A DNA stretch of 64,000 bases from positions 806,001-870,000 of the forward strand of contig NZ_CP090959.1 in the NCBI RefSeq assembly GCF_024138675.1, in the 5' to 3' direction. Each line of letters opens with the position of its first letter. Positions within the stretch are counted from its first letter, which is position 1. Source of the DNA: Simiduia sp. 21SJ11W-1 (GTDB lineage: Bacteria; Pseudomonadota; Gammaproteobacteria; Pseudomonadales; Cellvibrionaceae). The translations under genes and the position numbers were made by a program. Below, one piece after another: positions 46,739 to 54,161 of the stretch. Below the pieces are notes generated by a model that searched no databases, was not told where the DNA came from, and saw only the letters and a program-made list of their open reading frames with translations.

Positions 46739-47236
46739 TCAGCTGTCGGGCGCATCCGTTTCCAGCCGCGACAGGCCTTTCATCGTACATTGCTCCAAAA
46801 GGGATGCAAGTGTTCGGCCGTCTGGCAGGCAGGCTTGTGGGTAGATTTCATGCAGCGGGTAGAGCACAAAGTTGCGCTCGCACAGGTAGGCGTGCGGCAC
46901 AGTCAGGCGCGGCAGGTCTATGCGTTGGTTGCCGTATAAGAGCAGGTCTAAATCCAGTGTGCGCGGCCCCCAGTGGGTCAGCCGCTCGCGTTTGTGGGCC
47001 TGCTCTATGGCTTGCAGTTGGTCTAGCAATGCCAAAGGCTCAAGGCTTGTGTGCAGCAGGGCGCAGGCGTTCAGGTAGTCGGGTTGGGTGGGACCTACGG
47101 CCACACTTTGGTAGAGCGACGAGCGCGCCACCAAACGGGTACCGGGCAATGCGCTTAAGCCCTCAAAGGCGCGCGCCAGTTGCGCGCGCGGATCGCCCAG
47201 ATTGCTGCCCAGGCCAATGGCACAGGTTACCGGCAT
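46739..47236 (-). CDS. folK: 2-amino-4-hydroxy-6-hydroxymethyldihydropteridine pyrophosphokinase
   Basis: FolK transfers pyrophosphate from ATP to hydroxymethyl-dihydropterin in folate synthesis. The 165-residue product has IGLGSNLGDP at the start, VGPTQPDYLNACALL, and GPRTLDLDLLLYG with the two metal-binding Asp residues, then PHAYLCERNFVLYPL. The ATG overlaps the pcnB stop by one base (TGATG). Confidence 0.96.
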   Translation of the reverse strand: MPVTCAIGLGSNLGDPRAQLARAFEGLSALPGTRLVARSSLYQSVAVGPTQPDYLNACALLHTSLEPLALLDQLQAIEQAHKRERLTHWGPRTLDLDLLLYGNQRIDLPRLTVPHAYLCERNFVLYPLHEIYPQACLPDGRTLASLLEQCTMKGLSRLETDAPDS

Positions 47237-48597
47237 CAGGCTTGGGGTTTGGGCGTGTTCTTGCGGTGCCGACGGCGCTTGGTGCGCGGGCCCTGGCTGC
47301 CAAGGTCTTTAACCATTTGTTCCTGGCCTTGCTCGTCTGTGGCTTGAAAATCTGTCCACCACTGGCCCAGGCCATCGAAGTTTTCGCCGGCGCTTTCCCT
47401 AAGCAGCAGGAAGTCGTAGGCGGCGCGAAAACGGGGGTGGCTGGCCACGGCAAAGGCACGCTTGCCATTGCGATTGGGCAGGCGCAGCTGTAAATCCCAG
47501 ATTTCGCGCATGGGAATCAAGAATCGTTTGGGCACGGCAATGGCGGCCAGTTGTTGGCTCACCACGGCGCCCGCTGCCTGGTTTAGCGCCATGGGCGCGC
47601 TCAGTTTTTGCTCAACCACCAGTTCGCGCAGCAGTTTGGCAACGGCAGGCCACAGGAGTGCGGCATAGATGAACGCGGGTGTTACCCGTTGTTCATTGCG
47701 AATGCGTTTATCGGTGTTGATCAGGGCGTTTTCAATGAGCCGCTCGGCCTGGGCATCGCCTGCGTGCAAAACGGCGTGGGTTTGGGCAAACAGGTGCGGC
47801 AGCAGCTGGTACTCGCGCAGCAAGCCAAAGGTGGCGGTGGCAGAGCCTGCCATGAACAGTTTCAGGCTTTCATCAAACAGGCGCGAAGACGATACCTGGC
47901 CCAGTAATTCTGCATTTTTGGCGATGGGGGCGGCGGTGTTGGGCTCTATGCTGAAGCCGAGTTTGGCGGCAAAGCGCACCGCGCGTAGCATGCGCACCGG
48001 GTCTTCTTTGTAGCGGGTTTCCGGGTCGCCAATCATGCGAATCTGGCGTTTTGCCAGGTCTTCCAGGCCGCCTTCGTAATCGTGAATGGTGAAATCTTTG
48101 GAGGTGTAGTAGAGCGCGTTGATGGTGAAATCGCGCCGGGCCGAGTCTGTTTCCAGGGTGCCGAAGACGTTATCGCGCAGCAGCATGCCGGAATCTGCCT
48201 GCTGGGAGTCGCGCTTGGATTCGGCCTCTGTGTGGCTGTCGCGGAAGGTGGTGACCTCCAGCAGCTCGCGGCCCATGCGCACGTGCACAATCTTGAAGCG
48301 GCGGCCAATGATGCGGGCACCGCGAAACAGTTGCCGCACCTGCTCGGGGGTGGCATCGGTGGCCAGGTCGAAATCTTTCGGGTTGCCGTCTAGCAACAGG
48401 TCTCTTACGCCACCGCCCACCAGATAGGCCTCAAAGCCTTCGGCATGCAGGCGCTTCATGGCCGACAGGGCACCGCGGCTGATATTGGCGCGCGAGATGC
48501 TGTGCTGGTCGCGGGGTACAACCCGCTTGGTCTGCTTGTGTGGGGCTGCAGCGCTCCCAGAGCGGGAGGGGAAGAGTGAGAAGAGTCGCTTCAACAT
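47236..48597 (-). CDS. pcnB: Poly(A) polymerase I
   Basis: PcnB adds poly(A) tails that promote RNA decay. The 453-residue protein has the nucleotidyltransferase motif VGGGVRDLLLDGNPKDFDLA (around 59-78) and the second motif RRDFTINALYY. It also has the RNA-binding GGLEDLAKRQIRMIGDPETR region (split here in two), and a basic C-terminus (GPRTKRRRHRKNT). It follows the crcZ region, as in Pseudomonas. Confidence 0.96.
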   Translation of the reverse strand: MLKRLFSLFPSRSGSAAAPHKQTKRVVPRDQHSISRANISRGALSAMKRLHAEGFEAYLVGGGVRDLLLDGNPKDFDLATDATPEQVRQLFRGARIIGRRFKIVHVRMGRELLEVTTFRDSHTEAESKRDSQQADSGMLLRDNVFGTLETDSARRDFTINALYYTSKDFTIHDYEGGLEDLAKRQIRMIGDPETRYKEDPVRMLRAVRFAAKLGFSIEPNTAAPIAKNAELLGQVSSSRLFDESLKLFMAGSATATFGLLREYQLLPHLFAQTHAVLHAGDAQAERLIENALINTDKRIRNEQRVTPAFIYAALLWPAVAKLLRELVVEQKLSAPMALNQAAGAVVSQQLAAIAVPKRFLIPMREIWDLQLRLPNRNGKRAFAVASHPRFRAAYDFLLLRESAGENFDGLGQWWTDFQATDEQGQEQMVKDLGSQGPRTKRRRHRKNTPKPQA

Positions 48598-48702: not shown

Positions 48703-48736
48703 AGAAAGCAAAACGGGAAAGCCTTGGCTTTCCCGT
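48703..48736 (-). terminator. Terminator of the CrcZ-like RNA
   Basis: ACGGGAAAGCC and GGCTTTCCCGT pair almost without a loop. On the minus strand TTTTGCTTTC follows. Confidence 0.78.
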
Positions 48737-48997
48737 CAAATTCTGTGTTACGTCCACATTGTTATGCTTATTAGGTGGTGCTTCCATGCCCGGGTTGGCA
48801 ATTTGCTTACTGGCAAACCCTCTCCTAGTTTCGTAGTCAGTTAAATCGCTATCTTATTATTATTTGTTGTTTTTATTAGTTATTTGTACGTTTCTTATTA
48901 TTTGTTGTTGTTATTAGAGTTTTCGTTTTTTCTTATTATTTGTTGTTTTTATTATGGGTCTTTAATTGTTTTTATTATCTATTGTTCTTATTCTGTT
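48703..48997 (-). ncRNA. crcZ: CrcZ-like Hfq/Crc-titrating small RNA
   Basis: Between cbrB and pcnB, on the minus strand, lies an A-rich stretch with five clusters of the CA motif AAnAAnAA. Examples are AATAAGAACAA, AAAAACAACAAATAATAA (three similar clusters) and AACAACAACAAATAATAA. In pseudomonads CrcZ at this exact locus binds Hfq-Crc through such motifs and relieves catabolite repression. A sigma-54-type promoter at 49007-49022 and an intrinsic terminator at 48703-48736 define a transcript of about 295 bases. The identification rests on position and motifs, not on covariance search. Confidence 0.78.
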
Positions 48998-49006
48998 GCA
49001 CTCTAA

Positions 49007-49022
49007 TACATTTAGCGTGCCA
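49007..49022 (-). promoter_or_regulatory. Sigma-54 promoter of the CrcZ-like RNA
   Basis: Read on the minus strand it is TGGCACGCTAAATGTA. The -24 TGGCACG matches the consensus, and the -12 part (ATGT for TTGC) keeps the G at the right spacing with one T for C change. The start would be about twelve bases later, just before the first CA motif. Confidence 0.62.
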
Positions 49023-49119
49023 ACTTTATAAAACCCATATAAAACAACAAGTTATAAAGTTTGGAATAACGGGGCCATCAGTCGATAACCGTTGATTCGT
49101 TACCGTTACGCTCGTTCAC

Positions 49120-49153
49120 TGTTACATTTCCATGACAAGGTAACACTTGTTAC
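49120..49153. promoter_or_regulatory. CbrB-like upstream activator site
   Basis: TGTTAC, 14 bases, GTAACA (49120-49145), then another TGTTAC at 49148-49153. It resembles the TGTTAC/GTAACA inverted repeat reported for CbrB. It lies about 100-140 bp upstream of the sigma-54 promoter, the usual enhancer distance. The remaining 49154-49587 stretch holds no gene I can support. Confidence 0.55.
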
Positions 49154-49587: not shown

Positions 49588-50985
49588 TTACCTGGCGGTG
49601 GCTTTCTTGCGGGGGATACCCAGGCGCTGGCGGCGCTCCCACAGGCACTTGCGGCTAACGCCAAGCTTTTTGGCCAGCTCCGTTTCGCTCATGGTGTCTT
49701 GGTGTTCGAGTACAAAGCGCTGGAAGTAGTCTTCCAGCGACAGATCTTCCGCCGGGTCTTCTTTTTTGGTTTTCGAGAGCAGCTTGCGCGGTTGCAGGTC
49801 GTCTTCGTGCAGGTCGTCGTCTTCTACGTCTACTTCCACGAGGTCGAGGTCTATCTCCAGCAGCTTGTGGCTGATTTCTTTATCATCGTTGCAGAGAATA
49901 ATGGCGCGCTGAATGGCGTTTTCCATTTCGCGCACGTTGCCTGGCCATATGTAGGTGGTAATGGCCTGAATGGCCTCCGGCGAGAGCGACAGCGGTTGCT
50001 TGCCGAACTGGGCGCAAAAGCGGGTGAGCATGTGCTCGGCCAGCAGCAGGATATCGCGCCCGCGCTCGCGCAGCGGCGGCAGTGTGAGCTGCACGACATT
50101 GATGCGGTAGTACAAATCTTCCCGAAACTTGCCTTCCTGGGCCAGTTTGCGCAGGTCGCGGTGGGTAGCGGCCACCAGGCGCACATCCACCTTGTGGGAT
50201 TCCACCGAGCCAATGGGCCGCACTTCACCTTCTTGCAGTACCCGCAGCAGGCGGGCCTGGGCCTCCAGGGGCAGCTCGCCGATTTCATCGAGAAACAGGG
50301 TGCCACCGTCGGCGGCGGCCACCAGGCCTTCGCGCTGGCTGGCGGCACCGGTAAAGGCGCCTTTTTCGTGGCCAAACAGTTCCGATTCAATGAGTGTTTC
50401 GGGAATGGCGGCGCAGTTAACGGAAATCAGCGGTTTCTCGGCGCGGGGGCTTTCTGCGTGAATGGCCTTGGCTACCAGCTCTTTACCGGTGCCGGTTTCG
50501 CCGTGCACCAGCACCGTGGCGCCGGTGGGGGCTACTTTGTGGATCTTGGCGTACAGGGCCTTCATGACGTTGGAATTGCCAATCATGCTGGCCACGCCCG
50601 CCTGGTTTTCCTCGGGCGCCTGGCGCGCCGCGCGGTTGGCTTTGCCGATTACCCGCTTCACGGCCGCTAGCATTTCATCGTGGTCGAAGGGCTTGGCGAT
50701 GTAATCCACCGCGCCCATGCGCATGGAGTCTACCGCTGAGCGCAGGCTGGCGTAGCTGGTCATGATCAGCACGGGCACCTCGCCCGACAGGGTGATCAAA
50801 TCGGTGCCGGGCGCGCCGGGCAGGCGCAGATCGCTGATGATCAGGTCGAAACTGGTGAGGTTGTGCTTGGTGGTAGCTTCTTTGACCGAGCCGGCCTCGC
50901 TCACCACGTATTTGTTGCGCTCGAGCAGCTTGCGCAGGGCCATGCGGATGATGGGTTCGTCTTCAACGATCAGGATATGGCTCAT
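49588..50985 (-). CDS. cbrB: Two-component response regulator CbrB (NtrC family)
   Basis: CbrB activates sigma-54 promoters for carbon and nitrogen source use, crcZ being its main target. The 465-residue protein has a receiver domain with Asp52 and an AAA+ domain with Walker A GETGTGKE (162-169), sigma-54 loop GAFTGA (209-214) and Walker B GGTLFLDE. The C-terminal Fis-type helix-turn-helix shows ETELAKKLGVSRKCLWERRQ. It is 52 bp after cbrA, and the predicted target RNA lies next to it. Confidence 0.94.
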   Translation of the reverse strand: MSHILIVEDEPIIRMALRKLLERNKYVVSEAGSVKEATTKHNLTSFDLIISDLRLPGAPGTDLITLSGEVPVLIMTSYASLRSAVDSMRMGAVDYIAKPFDHDEMLAAVKRVIGKANRAARQAPEENQAGVASMIGNSNVMKALYAKIHKVAPTGATVLVHGETGTGKELVAKAIHAESPRAEKPLISVNCAAIPETLIESELFGHEKGAFTGAASQREGLVAAADGGTLFLDEIGELPLEAQARLLRVLQEGEVRPIGSVESHKVDVRLVAATHRDLRKLAQEGKFREDLYYRINVVQLTLPPLRERGRDILLLAEHMLTRFCAQFGKQPLSLSPEAIQAITTYIWPGNVREMENAIQRAIILCNDDKEISHKLLEIDLDLVEVDVEDDDLHEDDLQPRKLLSKTKKEDPAEDLSLEDYFQRFVLEHQDTMSETELAKKLGVSRKCLWERRQRLGIPRKKATAR

Positions 50986-51037: not shown

Positions 51038-53989
51038 TTATGCAAGGGGTAGGCGGATATCAAACCGCGTTCCCCGGCCGGCCTCGGTATCCACGGGGCT
51101 TGTGACGCTCAGGCTGCCCTTGTGGTCTTCAACAATGGAGTACACCATGGCGAGCCCCAGGCCCGTGCCTTGGCCCGGTTCTTTGGTGGTAAAGAACGGC
51201 TCCATAATGCGATCCATCAGTTCCGGCGGAATGCCCGAACCCTCGTCTTCTACGCTCACCACCACATGCTCTTCGGCCTCGTCGCTCCACAGGCACACCT
51301 CGGCGCCCTCGGGGCTGGCATCGCGGGCGTTAGAGAGCAGGTTCACAAATACCTGGATCATGCGCTGGCTGTCGCCCAACAGGCTGATGTCGGGTTCTAT
51401 GTGGTTGGTGAATATCACTTGTTGCTTGTCTTTTTGCAGCGAAATCAAAGCGATGGCTTCCTGCGCGCAGGTGTGGATGTTCATGGGCTCCACCAGCCGT
51501 TCCTCGCCGCCGCCCGAGTGGGAGAAGCTCACCAGCGAGTGCACAATGCGCGATACGCGGTCTGTTTGGCTCAGAATCTGGTCTGCGGTGGCGTGCACTT
51601 CCGGTTCTTGGGAGTCGTAGTGCAGGTTTTGCGCAAGGCAGGCAATGCCGGTGATGGGGTTGCCAATCTCGTGGGCCACACCCGCCGCCAGCCGCCCCAC
51701 GGAGGCCAGGCGCTCACTGTGCACCAGCTCCTGTTCAAGCAGCTGGGTTTCGGTAACGTCTTCCAGCAGGATCACCTGGCCGTCGAACAGGCCGTCTTCC
51801 ACTTCTGTTTGTTCAAGCAGTGCCTTGTGCAGGCTGATCCAGTGGGTGCGGTGGTTGATTTCCACGCTTTGCTTGTAGCGGTGGTTGTCTTCACTGTGGG
51901 CAAAGCTGCGAATCAGGCTGCCCCATGGGTCTGCCAGGTCTTCCAGGCTTGAGCCGGTAACGGCCTCGGCATCAATACCGGTGAGCCGGCTCATGGCGTC
52001 GTTCCACATCATGATCTCGCCGTCCTGGCCCAGAGAGCAGGCGGCCATGGGCAATAGTTGCAGGGTTTGGCGGTGGTACAGGCGCAGTTTGTTGAGTTCT
52101 GCCGCCATGCCGGTGAGGTGCGATTGCAGTTGCCCTAAGCGGCTTTCCATCAGGTTGATGTCGGCGGTGTGGCGCTGTTCACTCACAGCGTAGGGGATGC
52201 AGCGGTCGAGAATATCGTTGGCGATGCCGATGCCCATCAAGCCCGAGAGGTTGGCCTCAATCTGATCGCGCAGGCGGCGCAGGGCGTAGGGGCGGCGTTC
52301 ATCAATGGTGAGCGAGAGCTGCCCTAGCGCCCGGGCCACTTCATCGCGCGCCGATTGTGGCCCCAGCACTTCGGCCAGGCGGGCGCGAAATTCCCGGGCC
52401 GAGCGCAGCTCAAGCGACAGCCGCAGGGGTTGGGATAGCTCGTCATCGGCGCAGATATCGGCACTGAAGCGCTCGTCTTCGCCCTGGCTTGTAAGCAGCG
52501 ACAGCAGCACAAATACCAGGGTGTTGGCGCCCAGCGAAATGAGCGTGATTTCGCTCCAATAATTGATGCCCACGGGCAGTGCCAGGCCCAGGCTTGGCAG
52601 CTGGTAGAGGGATATATCCAGTACCGAGGGCATGAACAGCCCCATAAACCAGAGGCTCGCGCCCAGTGCCAGGCCACAGGTGGCGCCCAGGCGATTACCC
52701 TTGGGCCAGTAGGCCACCGCCGAGATGCTGGGCAAAAACTGCAGGGTGCCAATAAACGCCATCAGCGCCAATTGTGCCAGCGAGAAGTTGCTGTCGAACC
52801 ACAGGTACAGCCCGAAGCCCGATAAAAACACCACGCAAATCAGCACCCGGCGCAACCACATCAGGCGCGCGTAGATGTCGGTTTGGTAGCTCAGCTGCAG
52901 AACCGGCAGCAGCCAGTGGTTGAGCAGCATGGTGGCCATGGCCAGCGCAATCACCACCATGGCGCCGGTGGCCGCCGAGAGGCCGCCAATAAAGGCGATG
53001 AGCGTGAGGGTAGGGGCCTCGCCGTAAATGGGCACACCCAAGGTGAAATACTGGGCAGGCAGGGGCACACCCAGCTCGAAACCGGCCCACAGAATGGGGA
53101 ACACCGGCAGTGCCATGAGCAACAAAAACAGCGGGAACGCCCAGCTCACCGTTTGGGTGGTGTGCTTCATGGGGTTTTCCACCACGCTCATGTGAAAGAT
53201 GTGCGGCATGGCCACGGCGGTGGCAAAAAATACCAGCATCAGGGTGGAGCTGGCGGAATCTTTCATGGGGTTGTGCAGCAGGGCGATGTTTTCCGGGTGA
53301 TCCAGCAGCCATTGGTCGAGCCCGGCCACGCCATCGAATACATTGAATACCGCAAACAGGCCCACCGCGCAGATGGCGCACACCTTTAACAGCGATTCAA
53401 AGGCCATGGCGGTAATCATGCCCCGGTGTTGCTCGCGGTTAGAGCCGAACATGCTAGTGAAGGTGGCCAGCAGGGCGCAGTACATAAAGGCCAGCACCTG
53501 TTTTAGGGTCACGCCGCTTTCGCCCAGGCCCCAGGCGGGAAGGCTGTCTACGGTGATGATGCGCAGGGTGTCTGATACCGCCTGAATCTGCAGAGCCAGC
53601 AGCGGCAATACGCCCAAAAACATGCACAGGGTGCCGAGCGCGCCCAAGAGGTTTGAGTGGTAGCGAAACACCAGCAAATCGGCCAGCGAGTGAATCTGGT
53701 AGCGGCGCGCCAGATCTGCCAGCGGGCGAATGGCCACCGGGGCAAACAAAAACAGGGCGCCGGTGCCCAGGTAATAGGCCAGTGCGCCGTAGCCATACTG
53801 GAAGGCCAGATCCACCACCCCATAGAAAGACCAGGCGCTGGCGAAGATTCCCAGCGACAAAATGTAGGTAAGCGGGTGGCGAATGACGCGGTCGGGAATC
53901 CAGCCGTTTTCGGTAATCCAGGCGATGCCGAAAATGAGCAGCAAATAGCCCACACACAGCAATGAAATTTCAATCAGGCTAAAGGTCAT
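51038..53989 (-). CDS. cbrA: Sensor histidine kinase CbrA with transporter-like N-terminus
   Basis: The 983-residue kinase joins an SLC5-like (sodium/solute symporter fold) 12-13 helix region (residues 1-480), a linker, a PAS domain (around 640-740) and a HisKA/HATPase kinase core. The phospho-acceptor His is in GVAHEIGNP (about 773) and the N-box in VFVNLLSNARDA. The kinase links carbon/nitrogen status to CbrB. The start is ATG 53989, which overlaps the small upstream gene by 11 bp; an ATG at 54028 is less likely. Confidence 0.94.
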   Translation of the reverse strand: MTFSLIEISLLCVGYLLLIFGIAWITENGWIPDRVIRHPLTYILSLGIFASAWSFYGVVDLAFQYGYGALAYYLGTGALFLFAPVAIRPLADLARRYQIHSLADLLVFRYHSNLLGALGTLCMFLGVLPLLALQIQAVSDTLRIITVDSLPAWGLGESGVTLKQVLAFMYCALLATFTSMFGSNREQHRGMITAMAFESLLKVCAICAVGLFAVFNVFDGVAGLDQWLLDHPENIALLHNPMKDSASSTLMLVFFATAVAMPHIFHMSVVENPMKHTTQTVSWAFPLFLLLMALPVFPILWAGFELGVPLPAQYFTLGVPIYGEAPTLTLIAFIGGLSAATGAMVVIALAMATMLLNHWLLPVLQLSYQTDIYARLMWLRRVLICVVFLSGFGLYLWFDSNFSLAQLALMAFIGTLQFLPSISAVAYWPKGNRLGATCGLALGASLWFMGLFMPSVLDISLYQLPSLGLALPVGINYWSEITLISLGANTLVFVLLSLLTSQGEDERFSADICADDELSQPLRLSLELRSAREFRARLAEVLGPQSARDEVARALGQLSLTIDERRPYALRRLRDQIEANLSGLMGIGIANDILDRCIPYAVSEQRHTADINLMESRLGQLQSHLTGMAAELNKLRLYHRQTLQLLPMAACSLGQDGEIMMWNDAMSRLTGIDAEAVTGSSLEDLADPWGSLIRSFAHSEDNHRYKQSVEINHRTHWISLHKALLEQTEVEDGLFDGQVILLEDVTETQLLEQELVHSERLASVGRLAAGVAHEIGNPITGIACLAQNLHYDSQEPEVHATADQILSQTDRVSRIVHSLVSFSHSGGGEERLVEPMNIHTCAQEAIALISLQKDKQQVIFTNHIEPDISLLGDSQRMIQVFVNLLSNARDASPEGAEVCLWSDEAEEHVVVSVEDEGSGIPPELMDRIMEPFFTTKEPGQGTGLGLAMVYSIVEDHKGSLSVTSPVDTEAGRGTRFDIRLPLA

Positions 53990-54161
53990 TGCGCTTCGAC
54001 TTGCCGGCGGCTTGAATGAAGTAAGCAATTACTATCACTAAAACCCAGATAATAAATGGCCGGTACCAGGAACCCTCTTCATTGATCACCCAGCCAAACA
54101 GCGTGGGAGAGAAGATATAGGCCACCAGTAACAGGAGGATGATCAGGCGTGAATTGGGCAT
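53979..54161 (-). CDS. cbrX: CbrX-like small membrane protein upstream of cbrA
   Basis: The 60-residue product (MPNSRLIILLLLVAYIFSPT start) has two membrane helices, the second FIIWVLVIVIAYFIQAAG, and a basic end. Its stop overlaps the cbrA start by 11 bp, so cbrA translation is probably coupled to it, as reported for CbrX in Pseudomonas putida. ATG 54161 is preferred to an upstream start that would add 17 unlike residues. Confidence 0.82.
   Translation of the reverse strand: MPNSRLIILLLLVAYIFSPTLFGWVINEEGSWYRPFIIWVLVIVIAYFIQAAGKSKRNDL

Follow-up and report, generated by a model that had tools for sequence, protein, structure and literature searches.

A predicted CrcZ-type decoy RNA under putative CbrB/sigma-54 control between cbrB and pcnB in Simiduia and across Cellvibrionaceae

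The window, by which we mean the whole 64,000-nt stretch of Simiduia sp. 21SJ11W-1 DNA that was analysed, carries on its minus strand the gene order dksA-gluQRS-cbrX-cbrA-cbrB-(RNA)-pcnB-folK, in which folK was named by eye from its translation. A crcZ-like element on the same strand separates cbrB from pcnB. The cbrB-pcnB gap is 990 nt long and contains, in order along the minus strand, a CbrB site, the promoter TGGCACGCTAAATGTA, an A-rich tract and a terminator, as the sequence-only reading had described for the strand and succession of these parts. The features of the locus are as follows:

53979..54161, minus strand, cbrX-like small ORF that overlaps the cbrA start, assigned by position only
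51038..53989, minus strand, cbrA, transporter-histidine kinase, likely ATG start at 53989 (54028 in the ORF table)
49588..50985, minus strand, cbrB, response regulator with a sigma-54 activator domain
49098..49145, minus strand, predicted tripartite CbrB site TGTTAC-N14-GTAACA-N16-GTAACG, compared with the published consensus
49145-49140, 49125-49120 and 49103-49098, minus strand, its half-sites F1 (TGTTAC), R1 (GTAACA) and R2 (GTAACG)
49007..49022, minus strand, sigma-54 type promoter TGGCACGCTAAATGTA, with the -24 box starting at 49022, 123 nt past the F1 start
48703..48996, minus strand, predicted CrcZ-type small RNA of ~294 nt, both ends being predictions
48933..48947, minus strand, composite CA repeat 1, AACAACAAATAATAA
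48895..48909, minus strand, composite CA repeat 2, AACAACAAATAATAA
48857..48871, minus strand, composite CA repeat 3, AACAACAAATAATAA
48819..48842, minus strand, RNA core AACTGACT...GGAGAGG, also in Pseudomonas CrcZ (GGAGAGG counted, the AACTGA part judged by eye)
48712..48737, minus strand, intrinsic terminator hairpin with an 11-bp stem
47236..48597, minus strand, pcnB, poly(A) polymerase, downstream border of the unit

The RNA start was set 26 nt past the first base of the -24 box. The pcnB side of crcZ and the order of the remaining neighbours beyond crcZ and cbrAB are familiar from Pseudomonas. The Pseudomonas gene order for crcZ and cbrAB is given in passages of PMC8871633. CbrA, CbrB and CbrX had been proposed to lie nearby; cbrA and cbrB are confirmed by their domains, a transporter part fused to a histidine kinase in the former and receiver and sigma-54 activator domains in the latter, and the cbrX-like ORF agrees by position. 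Residues 14-620 of CbrA match chain 10ed (E 7e-166), which is listed just as 'histidine kinase' and which we take to be Pseudomonas CbrA. At the C-terminus of CbrB, 42 of 51 residues are identical to those of Pseudomonas fildesensis.

The inverted repeat TGTTAC-N14-GTAACA, noticed earlier from the sequence, was found at 49145-49120 on the minus strand. The 3.96-Mb genome contains one exact copy of this palindrome and three further copies with one mismatch; none of these three has a sigma-54 site, by the pattern used, within ~1.5 kb. The CbrB consensus reads TGTTAC-N12-14-GTAACA-N15-19-GTAACA (PMC8871633), and the third half-site of P. putida crcZ is likewise GTAACG (PMC6296734). Since a third half-site is present here and agrees with the published CbrB site, the site is more complete than the first description of it. 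A second GTAACG is present at N10, and position 49153, with which that description ended, belongs to an additional GTAACA copy.

Against the sigma-54 consensus, the -24 box TGGCACG is canonical and the -12 half is ATGTA, not TGC(A/T). The TGGCACG element named earlier is indeed present at 49022; the non-canonical -12 half had gone unmentioned. The -12 box is ATGTA or GTGTA (TGTA) in all four genomes of the window's genus. With a search pattern that admitted only TGC or TGT at -12, TGC was seen in 94 of the 97 pattern-matched gaps with pcnB adjacent, the other three being those of the window's genus; locus L187 (group f7), which the pattern excluded, has TGTA at its best site too.

Spacing was compared for 98 F1/R1-promoter pairs from 93 loci, allowing up to two mismatches and a searched distance of 100-159 nt. 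The distance from F1 to the -24 box was 121-124 nt in 79 pairs, and the remaining 19 fell at 101-104 (6), 113, 118, 120, 125 (2), 132-134 (5) and 143-145 nt (3); many of these off-class distances are roughly one or two helix turns away from the main class. R2 (at most one mismatch, N15-19) accompanied 84 of the 98 pairs vs. 16 of 84 on the other side of F1 (N8-23). The near-fixed F1 distance and the conservation of R2 point to an activator acting from a fixed face of the DNA, and as comparative support for such an arrangement they are strong. Near-consensus IHF sites (at most one mismatch) between activator site and promoter were counted in 80 of 98 pairs, a raw count without a control that is not used as evidence.

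Downstream of the promoter, nine AAYAAYAA motifs lie on the sense strand (48947-48854) and one on the other strand of the whole gap. Dinucleotide shuffles of the gap gave a mean of 0.3 such motifs and at most three in 100 shuffles, which speaks against a random match, the outcome that had been named as damaging to the proposal. A genome sample of 1.258 Mb (60 stretches and the window, ~32% of the genome) holds 213 AAYAAYAA on both strands; no other 200-nt stretch of it has four or more, and one has three. Six (ARN)n runs with n of at least 4 were counted in the RNA region. The A-rich clusters of the sequence-only reading are real in that the motifs stand far above shuffles; their number, given there as five, depends on how they are counted (nine AAYAAYAA or six (ARN)n runs).

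The A-rich part is built on a 15-nt family repeat unit, AACAAnAAAnAATAA, which amounts to two CA motifs shifted in phase by one base. At least one copy of this composite repeat was detected in 50 of 55 family gaps, in none of 7 Pseudomonadaceae gaps and in 2 of 40 others; neighbouring copies are mostly 31-44 nt apart, and the four genomes of the window's genus have two to four copies. Following the A-rich part, GGAGAGG was present in 23 of 53 family gaps (30 of 53 lack it) and in 4 of 7 Pseudomonadaceae gaps, vs. 4 of 53 and 2 of 7 on the reverse strand, and in 2 of 38 gaps of other families, outside groups f1 and f20. We equate f20 with Pseudomonadaceae because of its strong RF01675 matches and its likeness to a named Pseudomonas record. 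AACTGA(C/T)T precedes GGAGAGG, as judged by eye. Occurrence of the core in both groups argues for common descent of the Cellvibrionaceae RNA and Pseudomonas CrcZ. The same AACTGACT...GGAGAGG stretch (48842-48819, minus strand) resembles a ribosome site.

The terminator proposed earlier corresponds to the 11-bp hairpin at 48737-48712; the terminator scan taken alone is not above chance (three found vs. 2.0 ± 1.7 in shuffles). Predicted folding of the 297-nt RNA is better than that of all 200 shuffles (z -3.7), chiefly through its 3′ half, while the A-rich half is predicted to be largely open. A search of the whole genome with sequence model R1 for a second, CrcY-like copy returned this locus only, with two adjacent matches; the next best had an E-value of 0.745.

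To place the unit among related bacteria, DNA downstream of cbrB was compared at 119 loci, 100 of which have pcnB next to it on the same strand. These 100 gaps include two identical pairs (the same genome twice), and the loci outside the family were picked by hand among the matches listed, mostly one or two per genus. A further 19 loci without pcnB found downstream were excluded from the counts; in nine of them the stretch read shows at most one CA motif and no match to the sigma-54 pattern. A sigma-54 type site that fits the search pattern was found in 97 of the 100 gaps, followed by at least one CA motif in 96 and at least three in 85. Over all 100 gaps CA motifs numbered 897 in sense and 14 in antisense orientation. 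The related-loci search gave 80 loci, nine of them (L037-L045) close enough to use and seven of these with pcnB next; pcnB likewise lies beside the cbrB gap at L039, and L040 and L041 have no CA motif in the stretch read.

An RNA sequence model of 141 positions, based on sequence only and built from 34 family members, matches 139 of 143 family genomes. The unit, presented earlier as an isolated case outside Pseudomonas, is hence a regular feature of the family and occurs in other families as well. The best match lies at most 1.5 kb downstream of cbrB on the same strand in 131 of the 136 genomes with both features listed, and in 97 of 102 genomes outside model training. Among the five exceptions, the match is 2.4-2.6 kb from cbrB in G008 and G011 and on another contig in G010, G033 and G137; in these five the RNA turns up where the surroundings of cbrB are broken up or were not assembled in one piece. 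At least one gap with a sigma-54 site and then at least two CA motifs occurs in 21 of 24 family groups (Halomonas maura and Litchfieldella anticariensis are in positive groups; the 'Halomonadaceae' group consists of two records and may coincide with a numbered group), and groups f9, f7 and f2 did not pass this two-CA test. Five of the 100 gaps (L158, L159 and L201 in f47, L164 in f29, L184 in f37) hold two sigma-54 sites, each with CA motifs within 120 nt, as if CrcZ had been duplicated in tandem.

The check by a CrcZ covariance model suggested earlier was run with Rfam RF01675 and gave no match in the window or the genome at the gathering score. Under stricter filters RF01675 matches 59 of 293 genomes of the order, 14 of them over the cut-off, and none of the 59 belongs to Cellvibrionaceae. 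Several matches lie directly after cbrB by coordinate comparison, in groups f2, f34 and f19 besides the Pseudomonas group. As there is no match, the RNA is not filed under RF01675; as the model matches no genome of the family, the miss is not taken as absence of a CrcZ-type RNA. The family-specific composite repeat may explain why the model passes it over.

We interpret 48703-49145 as the promoter and gene of a CbrB/sigma-54-driven, CrcZ-type decoy RNA of ~294 nt that would titrate Hfq/Crc, and consider this very probably correct. The parts stand in this order and spacing and are conserved, and cbrAB, crc and hfq are present in the genome. The control unit of CbrB, sigma-54 and CrcZ with Hfq/Crc, proposed at the outset, is well backed by gene order, the tripartite site, the near-constant promoter distance, family conservation, a Crc-type gene and a suitable Hfq. 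These features point with high confidence to a CrcZ-type decoy RNA under presumed CbrB/sigma-54 control; in the decoy mechanism, for which Pseudomonas is the guide, our confidence is moderate. On the Pseudomonas model of CbrB activation, RNA production, Hfq/Crc binding and relief of repression, CbrA would sense the nutritional state and activate CbrB, which would bind the three half-sites, whose starts lie ~80 to 123 nt before the -24 box, and switch on the sigma-54 promoter. The A-rich (ARN) tracts of the ~294-nt RNA would then be bound by Hfq at its distal face, probably with Crc taking part. In this way the RNA would pull Hfq/Crc off mRNAs that serve less preferred carbon sources, freeing their start regions for translation. 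An RpoN-box pattern did not find rpoN in the sampled 32% of the genome, a search that is uninformative; presence of rpoN is therefore assumed.

The predicted RNA resembles Pseudomonas CrcZ in its place between cbrB and pcnB, its tripartite CbrB site, sigma-54 -24 box and terminator, and in the AACTGA..GGAGAGG core. It differs in having no RF01675 match, in carrying its A-rich runs in a 15-nt composite repeat and, in the window's genus, in the TGT at -12. CsrB/RsmZ decoys work through CsrA and GGA motifs; here Hfq and ARN repeats would take their place. Both kinds would be multi-site RNAs titrating a translational regulator (PMC4063720). PAO1 CrcZ also has six (ARN) runs with n of at least 4, and at 407 nt it is longer than the ~294 nt predicted here (PMC4063720). 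CrcY and CrcX are A-rich decoys of the Pseudomonas CbrAB system too (PMC6296734, PMC8871633). Unlike in Pseudomonas, a single locus was found in the window's genome, and no second locus of the CrcY/CrcX kind.

The sequence-only reading had asked for crc elsewhere in the genome and allowed that it, or an Hfq with the needed surface, might be lacking. Both were found. The crc gene lies between rph and pyrE (these two named by eye), the same neighbourhood as in Pseudomonas. Its best solved match is Catabolite repression control protein 4jg3 (E 3e-70), with identity at 117 of 253 aligned residues; the genome has a separate exonuclease-III-type gene as well. Hfq is like that of Pseudomonas and retains the distal-face residues Y25, Q33, Q52 and K56 (residues named in PMC6422490 and PMC4063720). 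Crc was detected in 141 of 144 family genomes, and, at the cut-off applied, in 287 of 381 genomes of the order, among which weaker matches may be exonuclease III relatives. Ten family genomes (G011-G013, G035-G037, G118, G119, G121, G122) have a second Crc-like match; those listed are 37-44% identical to the window Crc.

Cryo-EM work places the RNA-contact patch of Crc at K77/K135/R138/K139/R140/R141 (PMC6422490, PMC9890229), and the window Crc retains all six. Among 29 family proteins K77, K135, K139, R140 and R141 are kept in 29 and R138 in 27; among 18 from other groups positions 77, 135, 139, 140 and 141 are kept in 17, 17, 18, 18 and 18, and 138 in 8 (L321, L332, L344, L356 and L212 are left out of the residue counts). 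At the Crc-Crc contacts E193, R230 and R233 of P. aeruginosa, the window protein instead has K, N and E. With one Pseudomonas sequence as reference, position 233 is E in all 29 family proteins, 193 is K/R in 16 and neutral in 13, and 230 is K/R in 10; in the 18 others 233 is E in 12 and 193 is E in 6. Since E at 233 is common in other groups too, the contact difference is not special to Cellvibrionaceae. In P. aeruginosa, R230E undoes the damage of E193R (PMC6422490, PMC9890229), which makes a swapped Crc-Crc contact in Cellvibrionaceae plausible.

These charges bear on a different view of the RNA, that it is a decoy for Hfq alone and that Crc takes no part or assembles differently. E at 233 throughout the 29 family proteins, with 193 never E, departs from the R233 and E193 of P. 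aeruginosa and speaks for this view. Group f28 (e.g. L174, f28/g84) fits it as well: it has CbrB, its cbrB-pcnB gap is A-rich and contains a sigma-54 site, and among the matches listed it has a Crc only in G170, G207 and G238 being listed without one; its unit is perhaps an Hfq-only decoy. Against it, nearly all family genomes have Crc, and the five RNA-contact residues other than R138 are invariant in the 29 family proteins compared. We hold this view to be unlikely.

A second alternative would make the A-rich stretch the leader of a long pcnB (or cbrB-pcnB) transcript, with Hfq controlling pcnB in cis. The stretch does lie upstream of pcnB on the same strand, and Hfq acts on A-rich stretches at mRNA ribosome sites (PMC4063720). 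Here, however, the 11-bp terminator hairpin separates it from pcnB, its last CA motif ends away from the pcnB ribosome site, 257 nt ahead of the start, and it has its own conserved promoter and activator site, all of which makes the leader very unlikely. Also very unlikely is that the unit has decayed in the window's genus, TGT at -12 having lost sigma-54 function and the RNA being no longer made: the ATGTA or GTGTA box is shared by all four genomes of the genus, yet the same four keep the activator site, its distance (121-123 nt), the composite repeats and the GGAGAGG core, which drift alone would hardly leave.

The circuit of a CbrB-driven decoy for Hfq/Crc seems to extend through a large bacterial order. 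Passages of a 2022 review (PMC8871633) and of PMC6296734 describe CbrAB and CrcZ, with the order of these genes, as found in Pseudomonadaceae alone. In the open-licence literature we found no report of CrcZ in Marinobacter or of CbrB in Cellvibrio; the passages retrieved for CrcZ and Halomonas treat CrcZ only in Pseudomonas or Stutzerimonas, and those of PMC5715377, PMC13022988 and other open-licence papers yielded no report of CbrA or CrcZ in these families. Transcripts of cbrAB have been recorded in ocean samples, with no organism given in the passage (PMC5073097). The main surprise is the apparent breadth of the spread, together with a repeat unit unlike that of Pseudomonas.

A broader reading, which we offer tentatively as a possibility somewhat short of an even chance, is that CbrAB-CrcZ-Hfq/Crc control is ancestral to GTDB Pseudomonadales. 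The Cellvibrionaceae decoy would be distinct in its evenly spaced (mostly 31-44 nt apart), two-phase 15-nt repeats, each about as large as one Hfq distal face. Outside Pseudomonas, Crc would keep the RNA contact with other Crc-Crc charges (E at 233; in Cellvibrionaceae K, R or neutral at 193), so that the architecture of decoy and repressor assemblies would depart from the structures solved for P. aeruginosa. In the polymer degraders of Cellvibrionaceae, the circuit would set an order of use between polysaccharides and preferred acids. The unit, including its activator-site spacing, extends across Cellvibrionaceae and related families, among them marine polysaccharide degraders, and is a concrete candidate, open to testing, for a master switch of carbon use in these bacteria. 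For structural biology it offers a set of natural Crc variants that share one RNA contact and differ at the Crc-Crc contact positions.

Possible targets were sought among starts called by a simple script. AAYAAYAA occurs at about -37..+10 in 11 of 519 sampled starts with a clear ribosome site, compared with 2 and 0 at control offsets, and has the highest count among 28 arrangements of these letters (0 to 10 for the rest, with 10 for the next three); this hints weakly at a genome-wide target enrichment. By eye, several of the 11 motif-bearing starts look like those of exported proteins.

It had also been suggested that the CrcZ unit could set the hierarchy of use of the uronate locus, a link that the motifs found there make a weak one. 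One CA motif lies 23 nt before the start of a PfkB-type (kdgK-like) kinase (17864, minus strand); of 30 kdgK-like loci compared, the remaining 29, including one from the same genus, lack it. That comparison covers 30 of 53 matches, which come from 40 of 61 genomes, at identities of 43-69%, with paralogs likely and about half of the starts approximate. Another CA motif lies 30 nt before the chosen start of a TonB receptor (34629, plus strand). By Pfam, the uronate/polysaccharide locus (15906-37625) encodes a DctP solute-binding protein, a PfkB kinase, a dehydrogenase of mannitol dehydrogenase type, UxaC and GH88, and further a short-chain dehydrogenase, an alginate lyase, GH2 and the TonB receptor.
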